From positions 1 through 24,459 of the IMG/VR virus record IMGVR_UViG_3300043431_000067: DNA of 24,459 nt; one strand, written 5' to 3'. The position numbers and the translations under genes were made by a program. The stretch is from a virus. The stretch's first letter is position 1. Each line of letters starts with the position of its first letter. Positions 1,887 to 8,014 of this stretch are shown piece by piece. The notes below the pieces were generated by a model. It saw only the letters and a list, made by a program, of their open reading frames with translations. It was not told the DNA's origin and made no database searches.

Positions 1887-2641
1887 AGGTTCATGCTGTT
1901 ATTCCTGACGTTCAAGCCAAACCTGGGAACAACTTTAAGTTCCTAGAGCGGGTCGGTCATTATCTAGCTGACAAGAAGCCTGATGTTATTGTCCAGATTG
2001 GTGACTTTGCTGATATGGAGTCTCTAAGCTCTTATGACAAAGGTAAGAAGAGCTTTGAGGGTAGGAGCTACACTCGGGATATTGAAGCTGCTAACGAGGC
2101 TATGGATGCCCTTGTAGGGCCTATGCTAGATGAGATGCTTCGTCTTAAGAAGAATAAAGAGAAGCAATGGAGACCTCGCTTCATCCTTACCCTTGGTAAC
2201 CATGAGGAGCGTATTAATCGAGCCATTGAAGAAGATAGGAAACTAGATGGCCTTATTTCTGTTTCTGATCTGCCTTATGCTGGTTGGGAAGTTCATCCGT
2301 TTCTTGAGCCAGTAGAAATTGATGGTGTTTTCTATTGCCACTATTTCCCAACGGGTGTTCTGGGTAGGCCTGCTGTTACTGCTAGTGCTATGGTTAGTAA
2401 GCTGCATGCAAGCTGTGTTGCAGGACACCAACAAGGTAAACAAGTAGCTTATGGAAAACGCCCAGATGGTTCTATGATAACCTGCATTATGGCAGGCTCT
2501 TGCTACGAGCACACCGAATCTTATTTAGACTACCAAAGTAATAAACATTGGAGAGGTATTATTATGCTACATGAAGTTAACAAGGGGACTTTTGATGAGA
2601 TGTTTGTATCTCTGGGTTATTTAGAGAAAAAGTATGAATAA
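1883..2641 (+). CDS. Phage calcineurin-like metallophosphoesterase (252 aa)
   Basis: Binuclear-metal phosphoesterase. The motifs run in the usual order: IPDVQ (Asp9, Gln11 in place of the common His), IGDFAD (Asp41), LGNHEER (Asn106/His107), CHYF (His153) and GHQQG (His182). Gln in motif one and GHQQ rather than GHxH are, from what I know, typical of the T7-like phage branch, so the enzyme is probably active. The substrate could be nucleic acid ends, cyclic nucleotides or a phosphoprotein; the sequence does not tell. The start overlaps the preceding stop by ATGA and the end overlaps the resolvase gene by 8 nt. Confidence 0.88.
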   Translation: MKVHAVIPDVQAKPGNNFKFLERVGHYLADKKPDVIVQIGDFADMESLSSYDKGKKSFEGRSYTRDIEAANEAMDALVGPMLDEMLRLKKNKEKQWRPRFILTLGNHEERINRAIEEDRKLDGLISVSDLPYAGWEVHPFLEPVEIDGVFYCHYFPTGVLGRPAVTASAMVSKLHASCVAGHQQGKQVAYGKRPDGSMITCIMAGSCYEHTESYLDYQSNKHWRGIIMLHEVNKGTFDEMFVSLGYLEKKYE

Positions 2642-2951
2642 ATATAAAGGCAGAGAGGATTGGTATGCTGCATATTATAAGAGAAATAAAGAAAAATACC
2701 AACACAATCAGAGAAAGAGACTCTACGGGTTACAACCAGAGCAATTAGAATTTCTCCTTATTTCGCAAAATAACTCTTGTGCAATTTGCAAAGCACCTTT
2801 TTCTGAAACACCCCATGTAGATCATTGTCATATAACTAAGGGAGTTAGGGGTTTGCTCTGTCGCAGATGTAACACTGGTTTGGGTTATTATGAGAAGTAT
2901 GCAGAACAATTTAAAGAATATCTAGAGGGCTCCACAAATGAATTTTTGTAA
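2634..2951 (+). CDS. Endonuclease VII-like recombination nuclease / resolvase (105 aa)
   Basis: Resembles the Phage_endo_7 (T4 endonuclease VII) family, which cleaves branched DNA. CAIC (Cys49/Cys52) and CRRC (Cys76/Cys79) form the zinc site. VDHCH (Asp63, His64, His66) with VRGLLC and CNTGLG is the characteristic beta-beta-alpha-metal core. A basic 40-residue N-terminus precedes it. At 105 residues it keeps only the catalytic half of T4 gp49 (157 residues). In a T7-like context it is a natural Holliday-junction resolvase in place of T7 gp3, resolving junctions before packaging, although a small homing nuclease of the same fold is possible. It overlaps the phosphoesterase by 8 nt. Confidence 0.85.
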   Translation: MNKYKGREDWYAAYYKRNKEKYQHNQRKRLYGLQPEQLEFLLISQNNSCAICKAPFSETPHVDHCHITKGVRGLLCRRCNTGLGYYEKYAEQFKEYLEGSTNEFL

Positions 2952-3312
2952 TAGACTTGCTAATGTTTCTAACAGGTTTCAAGGAGATACTAAGAAAGTA
3001 CTCTGTGTCTGTAGTGCTGGACTTCTCCGTAGCCCTACAATGGCTGTAGTACTCTCTCAAGAACCTTACAACTATAATACTCGGGCAGCAGGCTTGAGTA
3101 AAGAATATGCTCTTATTCTTGTAGATGACGTGCTTTTACATTGGGCAGATGAATTTGTCTGTGCTGAGTCTTGGATGTCTCAGGAGATTGAAGAGATGCT
3201 AAAGGCTTTAGGTATGGAACATAAAGATATTATTGCTTTGGATATTCCTGATAAATATGAATATAGGAACCCAGAACTCATGCAGCTAATTAGGGAGAAG
3301 TATGATGGGTGA
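2938..3312 (+). CDS. Tyrosine-phosphatase-like protein with CX5R loop (124 aa)
   Basis: VLCVCSAGLLRSPT carries the P-loop signature Cys25-X5-Arg31-Ser32 at the end of a hydrophobic beta strand, as in low-molecular-weight protein tyrosine phosphatases. Asp102 and Asp105 in LDIPDKYEY lie where the family places its general-acid Asp. The protein is short (124 versus about 150 residues), and residues 1-19 are an extension before the first strand. The start ATG lies inside the end of the preceding gene, with GAGGG upstream. Phosphatase activity is inferred; the target might be host phosphotyrosine proteins or a small molecule. The 3' end overlaps the next gene by 11 nt. Confidence 0.75.
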   Translation: MNFCNRLANVSNRFQGDTKKVLCVCSAGLLRSPTMAVVLSQEPYNYNTRAAGLSKEYALILVDDVLLHWADEFVCAESWMSQEIEEMLKALGMEHKDIIALDIPDKYEYRNPELMQLIREKYDG

Positions 3313-3595
3313 TTGTTCAGACATTTTGTATGAAGACCTGTTCTCTGAGAAGATTGGAGGTACATCAGACCAACCAATCTATCGTGTATCTTTTAAAGAT
3401 AAAACTTCTTGGGATTATGTTCTAGAAGATATTGCTAAAAGGGAGAGAATGGGATATAATAAGTATGGTAAGTACCTCACAGAGGATACTGATGAGGATA
3501 TGCTAAACCATGCTTATAATGAAGCTCTAGACCTTGTAGTTTATCTTCGTACCCTCATCCTTCAAAGAGGAGGGAGGTATGATCCAAGTTTATGA
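3302..3595 (+). CDS. MazG-like all-alpha NTP pyrophosphohydrolase-like protein (97 aa)
   Basis: The C-terminal half is helical and reads RERMGYNKYGKYL then DTDEDMLNHAYNEALDLVVYLR (about 48-83). This resembles short phage proteins related to MazG/dUTPase-type all-alpha pyrophosphohydrolases, in which acidic residues on paired helices hold Mg2+. If so, it would hydrolyse a (d)NTP to (d)NMP and PPi and act alongside the ribonucleotide reductase downstream. The full EExxE-plus-ExxD set is not clear, so catalysis is uncertain. Two ATGs stand in tandem (3302 and 3305); GGGAGAAG precedes both. Confidence 0.6.
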   Translation: MMGDCSDILYEDLFSEKIGGTSDQPIYRVSFKDKTSWDYVLEDIAKRERMGYNKYGKYLTEDTDEDMLNHAYNEALDLVVYLRTLILQRGGRYDPSL

Positions 3596-3669
3596 GAAAT
3601 CCCTCTAATTGTAAATGGTCTTCCCGAAAAGAACAAGCAAATAATAGAAGGAAATTTAATGAAATTTGA
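3592..3669 (+). CDS. Possible 25-residue basic micro-protein
   Basis: An ATG at 3592 overlaps the preceding stop (ATGA) and opens 25 codons, with 7 Arg/Lys and a TGA at 3667-3669. It occupies the 63-bp gap before the next gene and overlaps that gene by 11 nt. A GGGAGG lies about 14 nt upstream, too far for strong direct initiation, so translation would rely on coupling. No family resemblance. It could equally be untranslated spacer. Confidence 0.28.
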   Translation: MRNPSNCKWSSRKEQANNRRKFNEI

Positions 3670-3856
3670 ACGAGTATCTATCCATATTACCAATCATGAT
3701 GAGGATAACGCAACTGTTAAACTAGAGTTCTTTCCTCCCCTTCCTGAAGATGAAAATGATATTGAAGAGCAACCTTGCTTGAATGTCCTTGACATGCTTC
3801 TGGATACGCTCACTGAGCTGGGGGAGGCTGATCCACAGGTGGAATACTTGCAATGA
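3659..3856 (+). CDS. Small acidic hypothetical protein (65 aa)
   Basis: Unrecognised. An N-terminal beta-like segment (FERVSIHITNHD, then ATVKLEFFPPLP) is followed by an acidic linker and a C-terminal helix. AGAAGGAAA about 8 nt upstream of the ATG is a reasonable ribosome-binding site. The 3' end overlaps the next gene by ATGA. The strong net negative charge is compatible with a small inhibitor or adaptor protein, but nothing shows a function. Confidence 0.6.
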   Translation: MKFERVSIHITNHDEDNATVKLEFFPPLPEDENDIEEQPCLNVLDMLLDTLTELGEADPQVEYLQ

Positions 3857-4044
3857 CTTTTCTAGAGTTGTGTGAGAAGCTTTCTATGGAGGAGGAGACT
3901 ATTCTCCTTGAGTTGTTGGAGATTACCAGTGAAGAGATTGTCGAAAGATTCCTCGACCGGATCGAAGAAAAACAAGAGACCCTCCGATGGAAAGAAGGAT
4001 TTGAAGACGCCACCTCCGAGGAAGATGAGAGAACTTCTGAATAA
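3853..4044 (+). CDS. Small glutamate-rich helical protein (63 aa)
   Basis: Unrecognised. Almost entirely helix-forming with heptad-like leucines (FLELCEKLSMEEETILLELL), so a short coiled coil is plausible. Very acidic, with about 20 Glu. It is coupled to the preceding gene by ATGA and sits just upstream of the ribonucleotide reductase. A separate 25-codon frame begins inside its 3' end. Confidence 0.55.
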   Translation: MTFLELCEKLSMEEETILLELLEITSEEIVERFLDRIEEKQETLRWKEGFEDATSEEDERTSE

Positions 4045-4102
4045 TCGGGAATGGGATTGTGAATTGAAAGAAATGTATAAAGGGATTAATAGTGCTACCT
4101 AG
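4025..4102 (+). CDS. Possible 25-residue micro-protein leading into the reductase
   Basis: An ATG at 4025 just after CGAGGAAG opens 25 codons ending at TAG 4100-4102. It bridges the 47-nt gap between the preceding gene and the GTG start of the ribonucleotide reductase at 4092, overlapping both. A leader that carries ribosomes to the weak GTG start by coupling is one reading. No homology is recognisable, and the SD-to-ATG spacing is very short, so this remains tentative. Confidence 0.28.
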   Translation: MRELLNNREWDCELKEMYKGINSAT

Positions 4103-5990
4103 TCTTTATCAAGAAATTATCCATCAAAGTCGTTATGCTCGTTTTCTTCCTGACCAACATCGAAGGGAGACTTGGGAAGAAACTGTTCAGAGGCTTATGG
4201 ACTATCTCTGGAGTAAGGTAAGTGACGGGCTTATCCAGGATAAGGTGAATGAAGTTAAACAAGCTGTCCTCAATCTAGAAATCATGCCCTCCATGAGACT
4301 TATGATGACGGCCGGAGAGGCTTGTGAGAGAGATAATATCTCTGCTTACAATTGCTCTTATCTTGCTGTAAACAATAAGAGGGCCTTCTCTGAGGCTCTT
4401 TACATTCTTATGAATGGTACGGGTGTTGGGTTTAGTTGTGAAAGGCAAGAGGTTGCAAAGCTTCCTCCTATTCCTTTTGAACTCAAGCATGTTGATGATG
4501 TTATTGTTGTAGGAGATAGCAAACTTGGATGGGCTAAGTCCTTTAAAAAGCTCTTGTCCTCATTGTGGGAAGGAGACATTCCATCTGTTGACTATACGAA
4601 GGTACGTCCAGCAGGGGCACGACTTGTTACCTTCGGGGGACGGGCTTCTGGACCTGAACCTTTGCGGCGATTGTTCGAATTTACTATGGAAACTTTTAAG
4701 CGAGCAAAGGGTAGAAAACTTAATAGCCTTGAAGTACACGACATGATGTGTATGATTGGGGAGATTGTTGTGGTGGGTGGGGTGAGGCGATCTGCTCTTA
4801 TTTCTCTCTCCAATCTCTCTGATAGGCGTATGGCTGAGGCTAAGAGTGGTGCATGGTGGGAAGCTAACTCTCAACGATCTTTGGCTAATAATTCTGTAGC
4901 TTATACGGAGAAACCTGATGCTACGACTTTCCTGGAAGAATGGACTACTCTTGTTAAATCCAAGTCAGGAGAACGTGGAATCTTTAACCGAGAAGCTTCT
5001 CAACGTCAAGCAGCTAAGTGGGGACGGAGAGATAAAGATCGAGAGTACGGAACTAACCCATGCAGTGAAATTATTCTTCGTGATAAACAGTTCTGCAATC
5101 TTACGGAAGTGGTTGTTAGAGCGGATGACACATTTGACGATCTTAAACGAAAAGTTGAACTTGCCACAATTCTGGGAACTATTCAGTCTACCCTCACAAG
5201 TTTCCAATTCCTAAGTGAGGAGTGGAAGAAGAATACTGAGGAAGAGAGACTTCTTGGCGTTTCTTTGACAGGTATTATGGATCATCCAGTAATGAATGGG
5301 ACCTATAACTTTGAATTTGAAGCAGACTCATTAGAAGAATGGTTAGAGAAATTACGAGACCATGCAAGGAATGTAAATGAAGAGTGGGCTAGTAAATTAG
5401 GAATCCCCGCAAGTGCTTCAATTACTTGCGTTAAACCTTCTGGTACTGTTAGCCAGCTTGTTGACTCTGCCAGCGGCATTCATGCTCGTCATAACCCATA
5501 TTATATTAGACGTATCCGTATGGATAAAAAGGACAGTATCTACAAATTCTTAAAAGACAAAGGTGTCCCTGTAGAAGATGAAGCTTTTCGTCCTGAGTCT
5601 ACAGCAGTATTCTCTTTTCCTATGAAAGCTCCTGAAGGTGCTGTATGTCGTATGGATAAGACAGCTATTGAGCAACTTGAACTATGGCTTACCTATCAAC
5701 GACATTGGTGTGAGCATAAGCCATCTGTAACCATCTCTGTTAAGGATAATGAATGGATGGAGGTAGGAGCTTGGGTATGGAAGCACTTTGATGAAATGTC
5801 TGGTGTATCCTTCCTTCCCTTCTCAGATCACACTTACCAACAAGCTCCTTACACCGATTGTACTAAAGAAGAGTATGAAGAGCTTCTGGCTAAGATGCCT
5901 ACAGTTGATTGGTCTGAATTTGTGGAGAAGGAAGACAATACGGAGGGGATGCAACAGCTTGCTTGTGTTGCGGGGGTGTGTGAGATATGA
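4092..5990 (+). CDS. nrdJ: Adenosylcobalamin-dependent (class II) ribonucleotide reductase (632 aa)
   Basis: Reduces ribonucleotides to deoxyribonucleotides in the host cytoplasm using a cobalamin-derived thiyl radical, supplying dNTPs for phage replication. NPCSE (Asn322, Cys324, Glu326) followed by Cys335 in FCNL reproduces the catalytic Asn-Cys-Glu and the reducing Cys of Lactobacillus RTPR; the 11-residue Cys-Cys spacing equals Cys408-Cys419 there. Cys88 (NCSY) is the disulfide partner. The C-terminal CVAGVC (Cys625/Cys630) is the CX4C thiol-relay tail. The N-terminus has no ATP-cone, and at 632 residues it is about 100 shorter than RTPR. No intein is seen. The start is GTG 4092 after AAAGGGA; no upstream in-frame ATG exists. 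It requires host cobalamin. Confidence 0.93.
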   Translation: MLPSLYQEIIHQSRYARFLPDQHRRETWEETVQRLMDYLWSKVSDGLIQDKVNEVKQAVLNLEIMPSMRLMMTAGEACERDNISAYNCSYLAVNNKRAFSEALYILMNGTGVGFSCERQEVAKLPPIPFELKHVDDVIVVGDSKLGWAKSFKKLLSSLWEGDIPSVDYTKVRPAGARLVTFGGRASGPEPLRRLFEFTMETFKRAKGRKLNSLEVHDMMCMIGEIVVVGGVRRSALISLSNLSDRRMAEAKSGAWWEANSQRSLANNSVAYTEKPDATTFLEEWTTLVKSKSGERGIFNREASQRQAAKWGRRDKDREYGTNPCSEIILRDKQFCNLTEVVVRADDTFDDLKRKVELATILGTIQSTLTSFQFLSEEWKKNTEEERLLGVSLTGIMDHPVMNGTYNFEFEADSLEEWLEKLRDHARNVNEEWASKLGIPASASITCVKPSGTVSQLVDSASGIHARHNPYYIRRIRMDKKDSIYKFLKDKGVPVEDEAFRPESTAVFSFPMKAPEGAVCRMDKTAIEQLELWLTYQRHWCEHKPSVTISVKDNEWMEVGAWVWKHFDEMSGVSFLPFSDHTYQQAPYTDCTKEEYEELLAKMPTVDWSEFVEKEDNTEGMQQLACVAGVCEI

Positions 5991-6094
5991 GATGTATCAA
6001 GCAATGTAAGCTCTCTCCCTGTAAAACATATTGCCTTGGTTGTAAACGAACTATGGAAGAGATTAGAGATGCGGGTAGCAATCGTAGGAAGTAG
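5987..6094 (+). CDS. DUF1289-like Cys-rich mini-protein (35 aa)
   Basis: A 35-codon gene whose ATG overlaps the reductase stop (ATGA at 5987-5990). The peptide carries Cys3, Cys7, Cys12, Cys16 and Cys19 followed by KRTMEEI. This reproduces the C-x3-C ... C-x2-C-x-RT-x-x-EI layout of DUF1289, a short family thought to bind metal or Fe-S. It ends about where that domain ends, so it looks complete. Its stop lies 26 nt inside the following SLOG gene. Function is unknown; direct coupling to the reductase might mean a metal or redox accessory, but that is a guess. Confidence 0.7.
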   Translation: MRCIKQCKLSPCKTYCLGCKRTMEEIRDAGSNRRK

Positions 6095-6437
6095 ACACAT
6101 AGATGATAGTCATTATGTTTTTCCTCATATTGCTCGGTTTATTAAGGAGCATACTTTTGGAAATGTTACAATTGTTTCAGGTGGTGCGAAGGGAGTAGAT
6201 AGTTTAGCTAAGGAATATGCTAAACAAAATGGGCTAGACTTTATTGAGTTTCAACCCTATCATGTACTAGATAAGCTTACACCTTTTGAGAAGAAATACT
6301 TCTTCATTAGGAATAGGCAAATCATTGACAACTGTGATAAGGTCTTAGCTTTTTGGGATGGGGTAAGTAGTGGAACTGAGCACGCTATTAAGTATGCTCA
6401 GAAACACAATAAACCAGTGATGATTATTAAATCTTAA
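6069..6437 (+). CDS. SLOG-fold (DUF2493 / YspA-type) nucleotide-binding protein (122 aa)
   Basis: Rossmann-like SLOG protein. It begins with the strand VAIVGSR (Gly7-Ser8-Arg9). VSGGAKGVDSLA (about 36-47) is the GGAxGxD nucleotide-phosphate loop. FFIRNRQIIDNCDKVLAFWDG (about 78-98) and SSGTEHAI complete the fold. SLOG proteins of this branch bind nucleotide-derived ligands such as ADP-ribose; I see no hydrolase motif. A TTG at 6036 would add 11 unrelated residues, whereas ATG 6069 directly precedes the conserved first strand and follows GAAGAGATTAGAG. It lies between a DUF1289-like gene and tad2, so a role in counter-defence or NAD-derived signalling is a reasonable hypothesis. Confidence 0.85.
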   Translation: MRVAIVGSRHIDDSHYVFPHIARFIKEHTFGNVTIVSGGAKGVDSLAKEYAKQNGLDFIEFQPYHVLDKLTPFEKKYFFIRNRQIIDNCDKVLAFWDGVSSGTEHAIKYAQKHNKPVMIIKS

Positions 6438-6447
6438 GGAGTTTTAT

Positions 6448-6720
6448 ATGAATTTTGGACAAGCATTAGAAGCAATGAAATCTGGTAAGAAAGTTTGTAG
6501 AGGGGGTTGGAATGGGAAGAGTAGGAAGCGTATGTTTCTTTTTCTAGTTCCTGGTAGTCACTTTGTTGTAAATCGTCCTCCTCTTTTAGGTATCTATCCT
6601 CCTGGTACAGAAGTGCCCTATCACGCGCATATAGATATGAGGACCGCTCAAGGGGATATAGTTCCTTGGCTTTGCTCTCAAACAGATATGTTAGCTGAGG
6701 ATTGGATGATTATTAAGTAA
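6448..6720 (+). CDS. tad2: Tad2-like anti-Thoeris protein (DUF2829, 90 aa)
   Basis: Matches the DUF2829 family: MNFGQALEAMKSGKKVCRGGWNG at the N-terminus, FLFLVPG in the middle, and HIDMRTAQGDIVPWLCSQTDMLAEDW (61-86) at the C-terminus. Known members (Tad2) tetramerise and sequester gcADPR signals made by Thoeris ThsB TIR proteins, so the ThsA effector is not switched on. The length is close to characterised homologues, and the conserved Trp21-Asn22-Gly23 and C-terminal block are intact. AAGGAG lies 7 nt before the ATG, one of the strongest ribosome-binding sites in the block. It is the last gene before the operon terminator. The family call is strong; ligand specificity is not visible. Confidence 0.9.
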   Translation: MNFGQALEAMKSGKKVCRGGWNGKSRKRMFLFLVPGSHFVVNRPPLLGIYPPGTEVPYHAHIDMRTAQGDIVPWLCSQTDMLAEDWMIIK

Positions 6721-6771: not shown

Positions 6772-6999
6772 TTATTCTTCCTTACTGTGTAAAAGATATG
6801 CTTCAATACGATCAAGTTTAGCTAGTACAGCTTGATACATATCCCTAAAATCACCTTTACTTACATACTCTTTAGGTAGATTAATTTCTAATTGTTTCAT
6901 ATCTTCTCTTAGATCAGCTTGAGCATCCCAAAGGGTTTTAACAAACCAACCGATAATAGCTGTGATGGCATAAGCACCCCATTTGAGAATCTCTTCCAT
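6772..6999 (-). CDS. Putative holin / small membrane protein (75 aa)
   Basis: Residues about 6-24 (KWGAYAITAIIGWFVKTLW) form one transmembrane helix near the N-terminus. A charged coiled-coil-like C-terminus follows, ending in LDRIEAYLLHSKEE. Small phage proteins of this plan next to an endolysin often act as holins or holin-like regulators in the inner membrane. A TTG at 7017 could extend it by 6 residues, but ATG 6999 has GGAAGGA 8-9 nt upstream and overlaps the stop of a 15-codon mini-frame (TGATG). It is the last clear gene of the late block. The holin call rests on topology and position only. Confidence 0.65.
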   Translation of the reverse strand: MEEILKWGAYAITAIIGWFVKTLWDAQADLREDMKQLEINLPKEYVSKGDFRDMYQAVLAKLDRIEAYLLHSKEE

Positions 7000-7046
7000 C
7001 AACGCATTCCTTCCCAAGACAAAGAATAATGATTATTGTCGTCCAT
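6999..7046 (-). pseudogene. Remnant of a second endolysin C-terminus (15 codons)
   Basis: Reading minus from ATG 7046, 15 codons give MDDNNHYSLSWEGMR and a stop. The endolysin upstream ends KDFNHFSLSHEGMK: from the Asp onward 9 of 13 residues match, including the metal-binding His and the C-terminal EGM. The fragment starts in a TAATG overlap with the DUF1353 stop and ends in a TGATG overlap with the holin. It looks like the tail of a former M15-type endolysin gene that once directly preceded the holin, kept as a short coupled frame. It may still be translated. Confidence 0.6.
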
Positions 7047-7420: not shown

Positions 7421-7755
7421 TTCATTCCCTCGTGACTCAAACTAAAATGGTTAAAGTCTTTGAACCTTCCACCCCAAGTACCTCCTTGAAGCTCCCACCA
7501 TTCTCCTAACTCTTTATAACCCTTCTCTCCTTGAAGGTACACACCCTCTCTAAAGAGATTAAGGTCAATAGCTAGCCTAATCTTATGGCAGGATTTAGGA
7601 TGTCCATAACGTACTTTGGATTCCCCTATCTCTCCATGTACTCTGGGGTCTCTATAGGCATCCCCTAGTGTCACTTCATATCCAAGCTCAAAAGCCCTTG
7701 CAATGAGGGTGGCAACCATCTGAGCAAACTTCACTTGTTTCTGTCTAAGCGTCAT
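7417..7755 (-). CDS. Endolysin, M15-type (VanY/L-Ala-D-Glu) peptidase (112 aa)
   Basis: Zinc peptidase that cuts peptidoglycan peptides for lysis. Visible ligands are His57 and Asp64 in SCHKIRLAIDLNLF and His103 in DFNHFSL, with the conserved GDAYRDPRV (31-39) carrying the Arg of the family. GGTWGGRFKDFNHF is the usual end of the single-domain phage form; no separate wall-binding domain or signal peptide exists, so export depends on a holin. A TTG at 7776 would add 7 residues, but ATG 7755 precedes the family-like start and has AGG 9 nt upstream. It overlaps the preceding gene by 11 nt and DUF1353 by 4 nt. Confidence 0.9.
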   Translation of the reverse strand: MTLRQKQVKFAQMVATLIARAFELGYEVTLGDAYRDPRVHGEIGESKVRYGHPKSCHKIRLAIDLNLFREGVYLQGEKGYKELGEWWELQGGTWGGRFKDFNHFSLSHEGMK

Positions 7756-8014
7756 CCCCAATGACCTTTCCCTCAAATTTCCAAATATTCAACCAAGATA
7801 GCCAAGGGCCTCTCTTCTGATTTATAATTTTCTGTTCTTCTGTAGGTATATACTGTGTTACATTCTTATCTAAATCTCTATGTAGGAAGTGTGGAATATA
7901 GTAAAGGGGGTGTTTTTTAGTTAAGCCAAAATCCTCTCCAAACCTACTTCTACGAATAAGAAGATAACCTCCCTCTTTCCATAGTTTCCTAACTGCATAG
8001 AGGAGACAATTCAC
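7745..8014 (-). CDS. Conserved hypothetical late protein (89 aa)
   Basis: The family is not named. A short amphipathic N-terminus (LLYAVRKLWKEGGYLLIRRSRF) is followed by HPLYYIPHFLHRD and a Trp-rich tail. It is basic and aromatic, with no membrane helix. The start is uncertain. GTG 8014 overlaps the preceding TAG (TAGTG) and has GAGG 8 nt upstream; GTG 8023 would add three residues but has its SD directly abutting. It lies between ejection-protein genes and the endolysin, so it could be a minor virion or lysis-timing protein. Confidence 0.65.
   Translation of the reverse strand: MNCLLYAVRKLWKEGGYLLIRRSRFGEDFGLTKKHPLYYIPHFLHRDLDKNVTQYIPTEEQKIINQKRGPWLSWLNIWKFEGKVIGDDA

Follow-up and report, generated by a model that had tools for sequence, protein, structure and literature searches.

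A probable endolysin gene remnant ahead of a membrane-protein gene in the lysis region of an uncultivated phage

Gene fragments occur at the novel joints of mosaic tailed-phage genomes. Like them, the remnant described here is, as far as can be judged, a small piece that a replaced gene left at a recombination joint. It differs from the general case in that it consists of merely 13 codons, is in frame and carries the ribosome-binding site of the next gene. As a scar of phage mosaicism it is unusually clean but ordinary. Escherichia phage Bas80 (L050) resembles the present locus since a DUF1353 gene is found beside annotated endolysin-holin-spanin genes. However, the DUF1353 gene of Bas80 follows the spanin, its product shows about 40% identity to the protein described here and no endolysin remnant is annotated. 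Among the titles and abstracts retrieved on endolysin remnants, leftover gene fragments and mosaic lysis cassettes, none reported such a case. For TtaP, another DUF1353 protein, phospholipase A2 activity has been demonstrated, and the authors of that study considered this activity likely to be common to other members of the family (PMC11525133). The present locus ties a protein of this family to a lysis cassette where, by analogy with TtaP, it is plausible that it acts in membrane breakdown at lysis. Within such a cassette, the locus also offers what would be a joint of module exchange that can still be read, with the order before the exchange preserved in a relative.

Organization of the lysis region

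The DNA analysed is a fragment of 24,459 bases from an uncultivated phage, and this whole stretch is referred to as the window. It was compared with a related uncultivated phage contig, IMGVR_UViG_3300042914_001560 (L014, also numbered L045). The features of the window are listed in their minus-strand order.

7755-7417, minus strand: intact M15 endolysin gene (Peptidase_M15_4), 112 aa, product ending in DFNHFSLSHEGMK (PF13539, E 2.8e-7; PHROG 1768, endolysin)
7420-7046, minus strand: DUF1353 gene, 124 aa, putative phospholipase A2 (PF07087, E 1.3e-23)
7046-6999, minus strand: mini-frame of 15 codons between the DUF1353 gene and the 75-aa gene, MDDNNHYSLSWEGMR followed by a stop
7040-6999, minus strand: codons 3-15 and the stop of the mini-frame, almost certainly the fossil 3' end of an M15 endolysin gene
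7017-7005, minus strand: Shine-Dalgarno stretch of the 75-aa gene, GGGAAGGA, inside the remnant (anti-Shine-Dalgarno duplex of -6.4 kcal/mol)
6999-6772, minus strand: gene of a 75-aa lysis-cassette protein with one transmembrane helix, 98.7% identical in amino acids to its L014 homologue

The intact endolysin starts with an ATG at position 7755 and its frame is open up to a TTG at 7776. The DUF1353 protein scored 82.8 bits against PF07087, for which the curated Pfam cut-off is 22.5. The stop of the DUF1353 gene is joined to the start of the mini-frame by TAATG, while TGATG joins the stop of the mini-frame to the start of the 75-aa gene, and the first two codons of the mini-frame derive from the DUF1353 junction. 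The mini-frame was observed to match the end of the intact endolysin at 9 of 13 residues and 27 of 42 nucleotides. These counts, as well as the frame, its coordinates and both stop-start overlaps, reproduce exactly those of a preliminary description of this DNA.

The 75-aa protein has one apparent transmembrane helix and is approximately 55-61% identical in amino acids to homologues in two other records (L058 and L060). Several of its homologues adjoin lysozyme, M15-peptidase-like or spanin-like genes and therefore the protein is considered to belong to the lysis region. It had been labelled a holin in the preliminary description, a label that was not borne out as no holin match was found in Pfam or NCBIfam, and its match in PHROG (462) is named 'lipoprotein'. 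A role as holin is thus a guess. In L045, a three-transmembrane holin of the GTA_holin_3TM family (PF11351, E 2.9e-30) is encoded at 1367-1798, far from the endolysin and on the other strand. The window has no counterpart of this gene at the corresponding position, and the 75-aa protein may therefore be one holin among others or not the true one.

Resemblance of the mini-frame to endolysin C-termini

The remnant, DNNHYSLSWEGMR, contains the C-terminal motif D-x-N-H-[YF]-S with the last histidine, after which the protein ends. The D, N and H residues of this motif were invariant across 14 aligned M15 endolysins and the terminal histidine is presumably the last zinc ligand of M15 peptidases. Only the region of this histidine is present in the remnant, which lacks the catalytic core (the SxHxxxxAxD region) of a functional M15 endolysin. 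Judging from its sequence, the predicted product of the mini-frame cannot be an enzyme.

A profile was made of the C-termini of other M15 endolysins, with those of the window and L014 left out, and the mini-frame scored 26.5 bits against it. Among the window's 951 other 13-mers that end at a stop (intact endolysin end left out), the highest score was -14.4, and the best score across 100 shuffled windows was 11.1. In addition, only two places in the window were found to match the last 42 nucleotides of the L014 endolysin at 25 or more positions. These are minus-strand 7458, which is the end of the intact endolysin, and 7040, which is the mini-frame; both match at 31 of 42 positions (binomial P of about 1e-9 per place). 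The score far above the controls and the restriction of matches to these two places argue that the mini-frame is not a product of chance. It might be supposed that EGM is present in the mini-frame and in both endolysin ends owing to a second role of GAGGGAATG as a Shine-Dalgarno site, and GGAAGGAATG is indeed under this constraint in both places. However, the endolysin-like match reaches well upstream of the Shine-Dalgarno site (DxNHYSLSW), every control lies far below the mini-frame in profile score and L014 has an orthologous endolysin end at the same place. Convergence or chance was therefore rejected as extremely improbable, and we regard the mini-frame, almost certainly, as a fossil endolysin tail.

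Gene order in relatives and origin of the remnant

In L014, an intact M15 endolysin ending in DFNHYSLSWEGMK directly precedes the homologue of the 75-aa gene with a 1-nt overlap, TAATG (TAATGG), and DUF1353 is absent. This is the kind of relative that the preliminary description had called for: its endolysin ends in NHYSLSWEGMK and shares a stop-start overlap with the next gene. This arrangement supports the core of that description, in which DUF1353 and the next gene enclose the tail of an older endolysin. L014 shares with the window the 75-aa gene, the Tad2-like, SLOG and ribonucleotide reductase genes, an M15 endolysin of the same clade and the SLSWEGM end, which in L014 belongs to the endolysin. 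Apart from the position of its endolysin and the lack of DUF1353, it differs in the genes found upstream of the endolysin and in its ribonucleotide reductase gene, which is split by an endonuclease insert. The mini-frame and the end of the L014 endolysin are identical at 31 of 42 nucleotides and 11 of 13 residues, in register with the downstream gene. Upstream of 7040 the similarity drops to the chance level (14/48), which marks the joint. Consistent with this, blastn aligned the window from 7035 through the mini-frame and into the 75-aa gene with the L014 endolysin end and onward, and aligned the intact window endolysin separately to the same L014 gene.

Further relatives were found by scanning with the ribonucleotide reductase protein as the query. 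In L060, an endolysin lies 9 nt before the homologue of the 75-aa gene; in L058, a different M15 peptidase overlaps that homologue by TAATG; and in L065, an endolysin overlaps another small gene, also by TAATG. DUF1353 matched nothing in the 12 related records tested, all of which are fragments or of unknown completeness. Most simply, given the gene order in these relatives and the lack of DUF1353 there, the endolysin followed by the membrane-protein gene is the older order and the DUF1353 gene is a newcomer gained between the two. No match to the whole cassette was found at the DNA level among 50,697 phage genomes, and the 851-aa upstream protein, used as a query, retrieved a near-identical contig alone. 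This contig (L046, IMGVR_UViG_3300044806_000184) differs by one base in the 14.5 kb that surround the mini-frame and adds no independence, so the number of independent cases is one.

The explanation that we find very likely overall is that the tail of an old endolysin was left by an exchange and kept before the 75-aa gene. An older M15 endolysin would once have been located directly before the membrane-protein gene, as it still is in L014. A recombination joint may then have formed inside its tail, and the exchange would have brought in a sister endolysin together with DUF1353 and left the old tail behind. The synonymous divergence between the window and L014 bears on the incoming block. The pS of the endolysin was 0.70 (95% 0.54-0.86), about twice that of the 75-aa gene (0.35, 0.21-0.52) and the SLOG gene (0.30, 0.20-0.43), with a Fisher P of 7e-7; the Tad2-like gene lay in between (0.53). 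This excess indicates that the two endolysins diverged earlier than most of the DNA to the right of the gene, which fits entry of the window endolysin with DUF1353. The endolysins of the window and L014 are also sisters (tree support 100/98), so that the donor would be a related phage unless both derive from an ancient tandem pair. In the latter case, the window would have kept the first endolysin and DUF1353 replaced most of the second, while L014 kept the second only. Sister endolysins suit paralogues and hidden paralogy would also account for the high synonymous divergence. However, no contig with two tandem endolysins was found among the loci fetched and the duplication route takes more steps than one exchange, and we therefore consider it unlikely. 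The preliminary description had proposed that a new endolysin-DUF1353 pair replaced the old endolysin. Replacement by such a block is reasonably probable, with the excess synonymous divergence in its favour and the sister relationship fitting a lost tandem duplicate as well.

The tails themselves are short. As the mini-frame is no closer to the L014 end than the intact endolysin end is (31/42 in both pairs), 42 nucleotides cannot settle from which endolysin lineage it came. Two derived residues point in different directions: the tryptophan of SLSWEGM is common to the mini-frame and L014, the phenylalanine of DFN is common to the window endolysin and L014, and neither was observed at its site among the other 37 distinct tails. 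Furthermore, the tail is more diverged from L014 (74% identity) than the 75-aa gene is (93%; P 7e-4), and either relaxed constraint or a donor that differed slightly can account for this.

Retention of the tail and neighbouring genes

The remnant contains GGAAGGA about 8 bases before the start of the 75-aa gene. The equivalent GGGAGGG in L014 is located in the last codons of the endolysin itself and its anti-Shine-Dalgarno duplex is -10.7 kcal/mol. By comparison, the duplex upstream of the mini-frame's own start is merely -1.8 kcal/mol. A stop-start overlap with the next gene was observed in 37 of 59 distinct endolysin cases, as ATGA in 22 and as TAATG or TGATG in 15. Loss of the tail would remove the ribosome-binding site of the 75-aa gene, which is a sufficient and ordinary reason for its retention. 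It is likely that the remnant was retained as this site, and the tail may have been kept for the stop-start overlap as well. This suggests that where the ribosome-binding site of the next gene lies inside the preceding gene, an exchange can leave the tail of the preceding gene. The preliminary description had read the remnant as preserving both couplings; of these, the one with the 75-aa gene is inherited, but the TAATG shared with DUF1353 is a new junction.

Ribosomes ending DUF1353 may reinitiate at this TAATG and pass through the mini-frame. The mini-frame could thus be a functional leader peptide or coupling cistron under selection, a proposal compatible with a fossil origin and in keeping with its start in one stop-start overlap, its end in another and the Shine-Dalgarno site that it contains. 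However, the Shine-Dalgarno site alone would serve the 75-aa gene and is a simpler reason for the survival of the tail than translated coupling. A frame of 15 codons also easily stays open by chance, and selection on it is not measurable with one independent sequence. We consider such a function doubtful. That the trapped tail is a working translational relay from DUF1353 to the membrane-protein gene appears similarly improbable, and if it were true, a dead gene fragment would help to set lysis timing. No RNA family of Rfam was found in the window or in L045.

In L045, the ribonucleotide reductase gene (2034-4528) is split by an insert of approximately 530 nt with an endonuclease VII-type reading frame (PF02945, E 3.7e-24), and the flanking ends of this insert look intein-like. 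The gene is uninterrupted in the window (4092-5990). On the plus strand of the window, a protein with a Tad2-like anti-Thoeris domain (6448-6720; PF11195, E 4e-24) adjoins a SLOG/DprA-like protein (6036-6437; YAcAr, PF10686). This pair is convergent with the lysis cassette and is kept in L014. We also noticed that 14 sites which differ between the window and L046 are packed into positions 127-180, with almost none elsewhere, and this suggests local recombination or an assembly patch near the fragment end.
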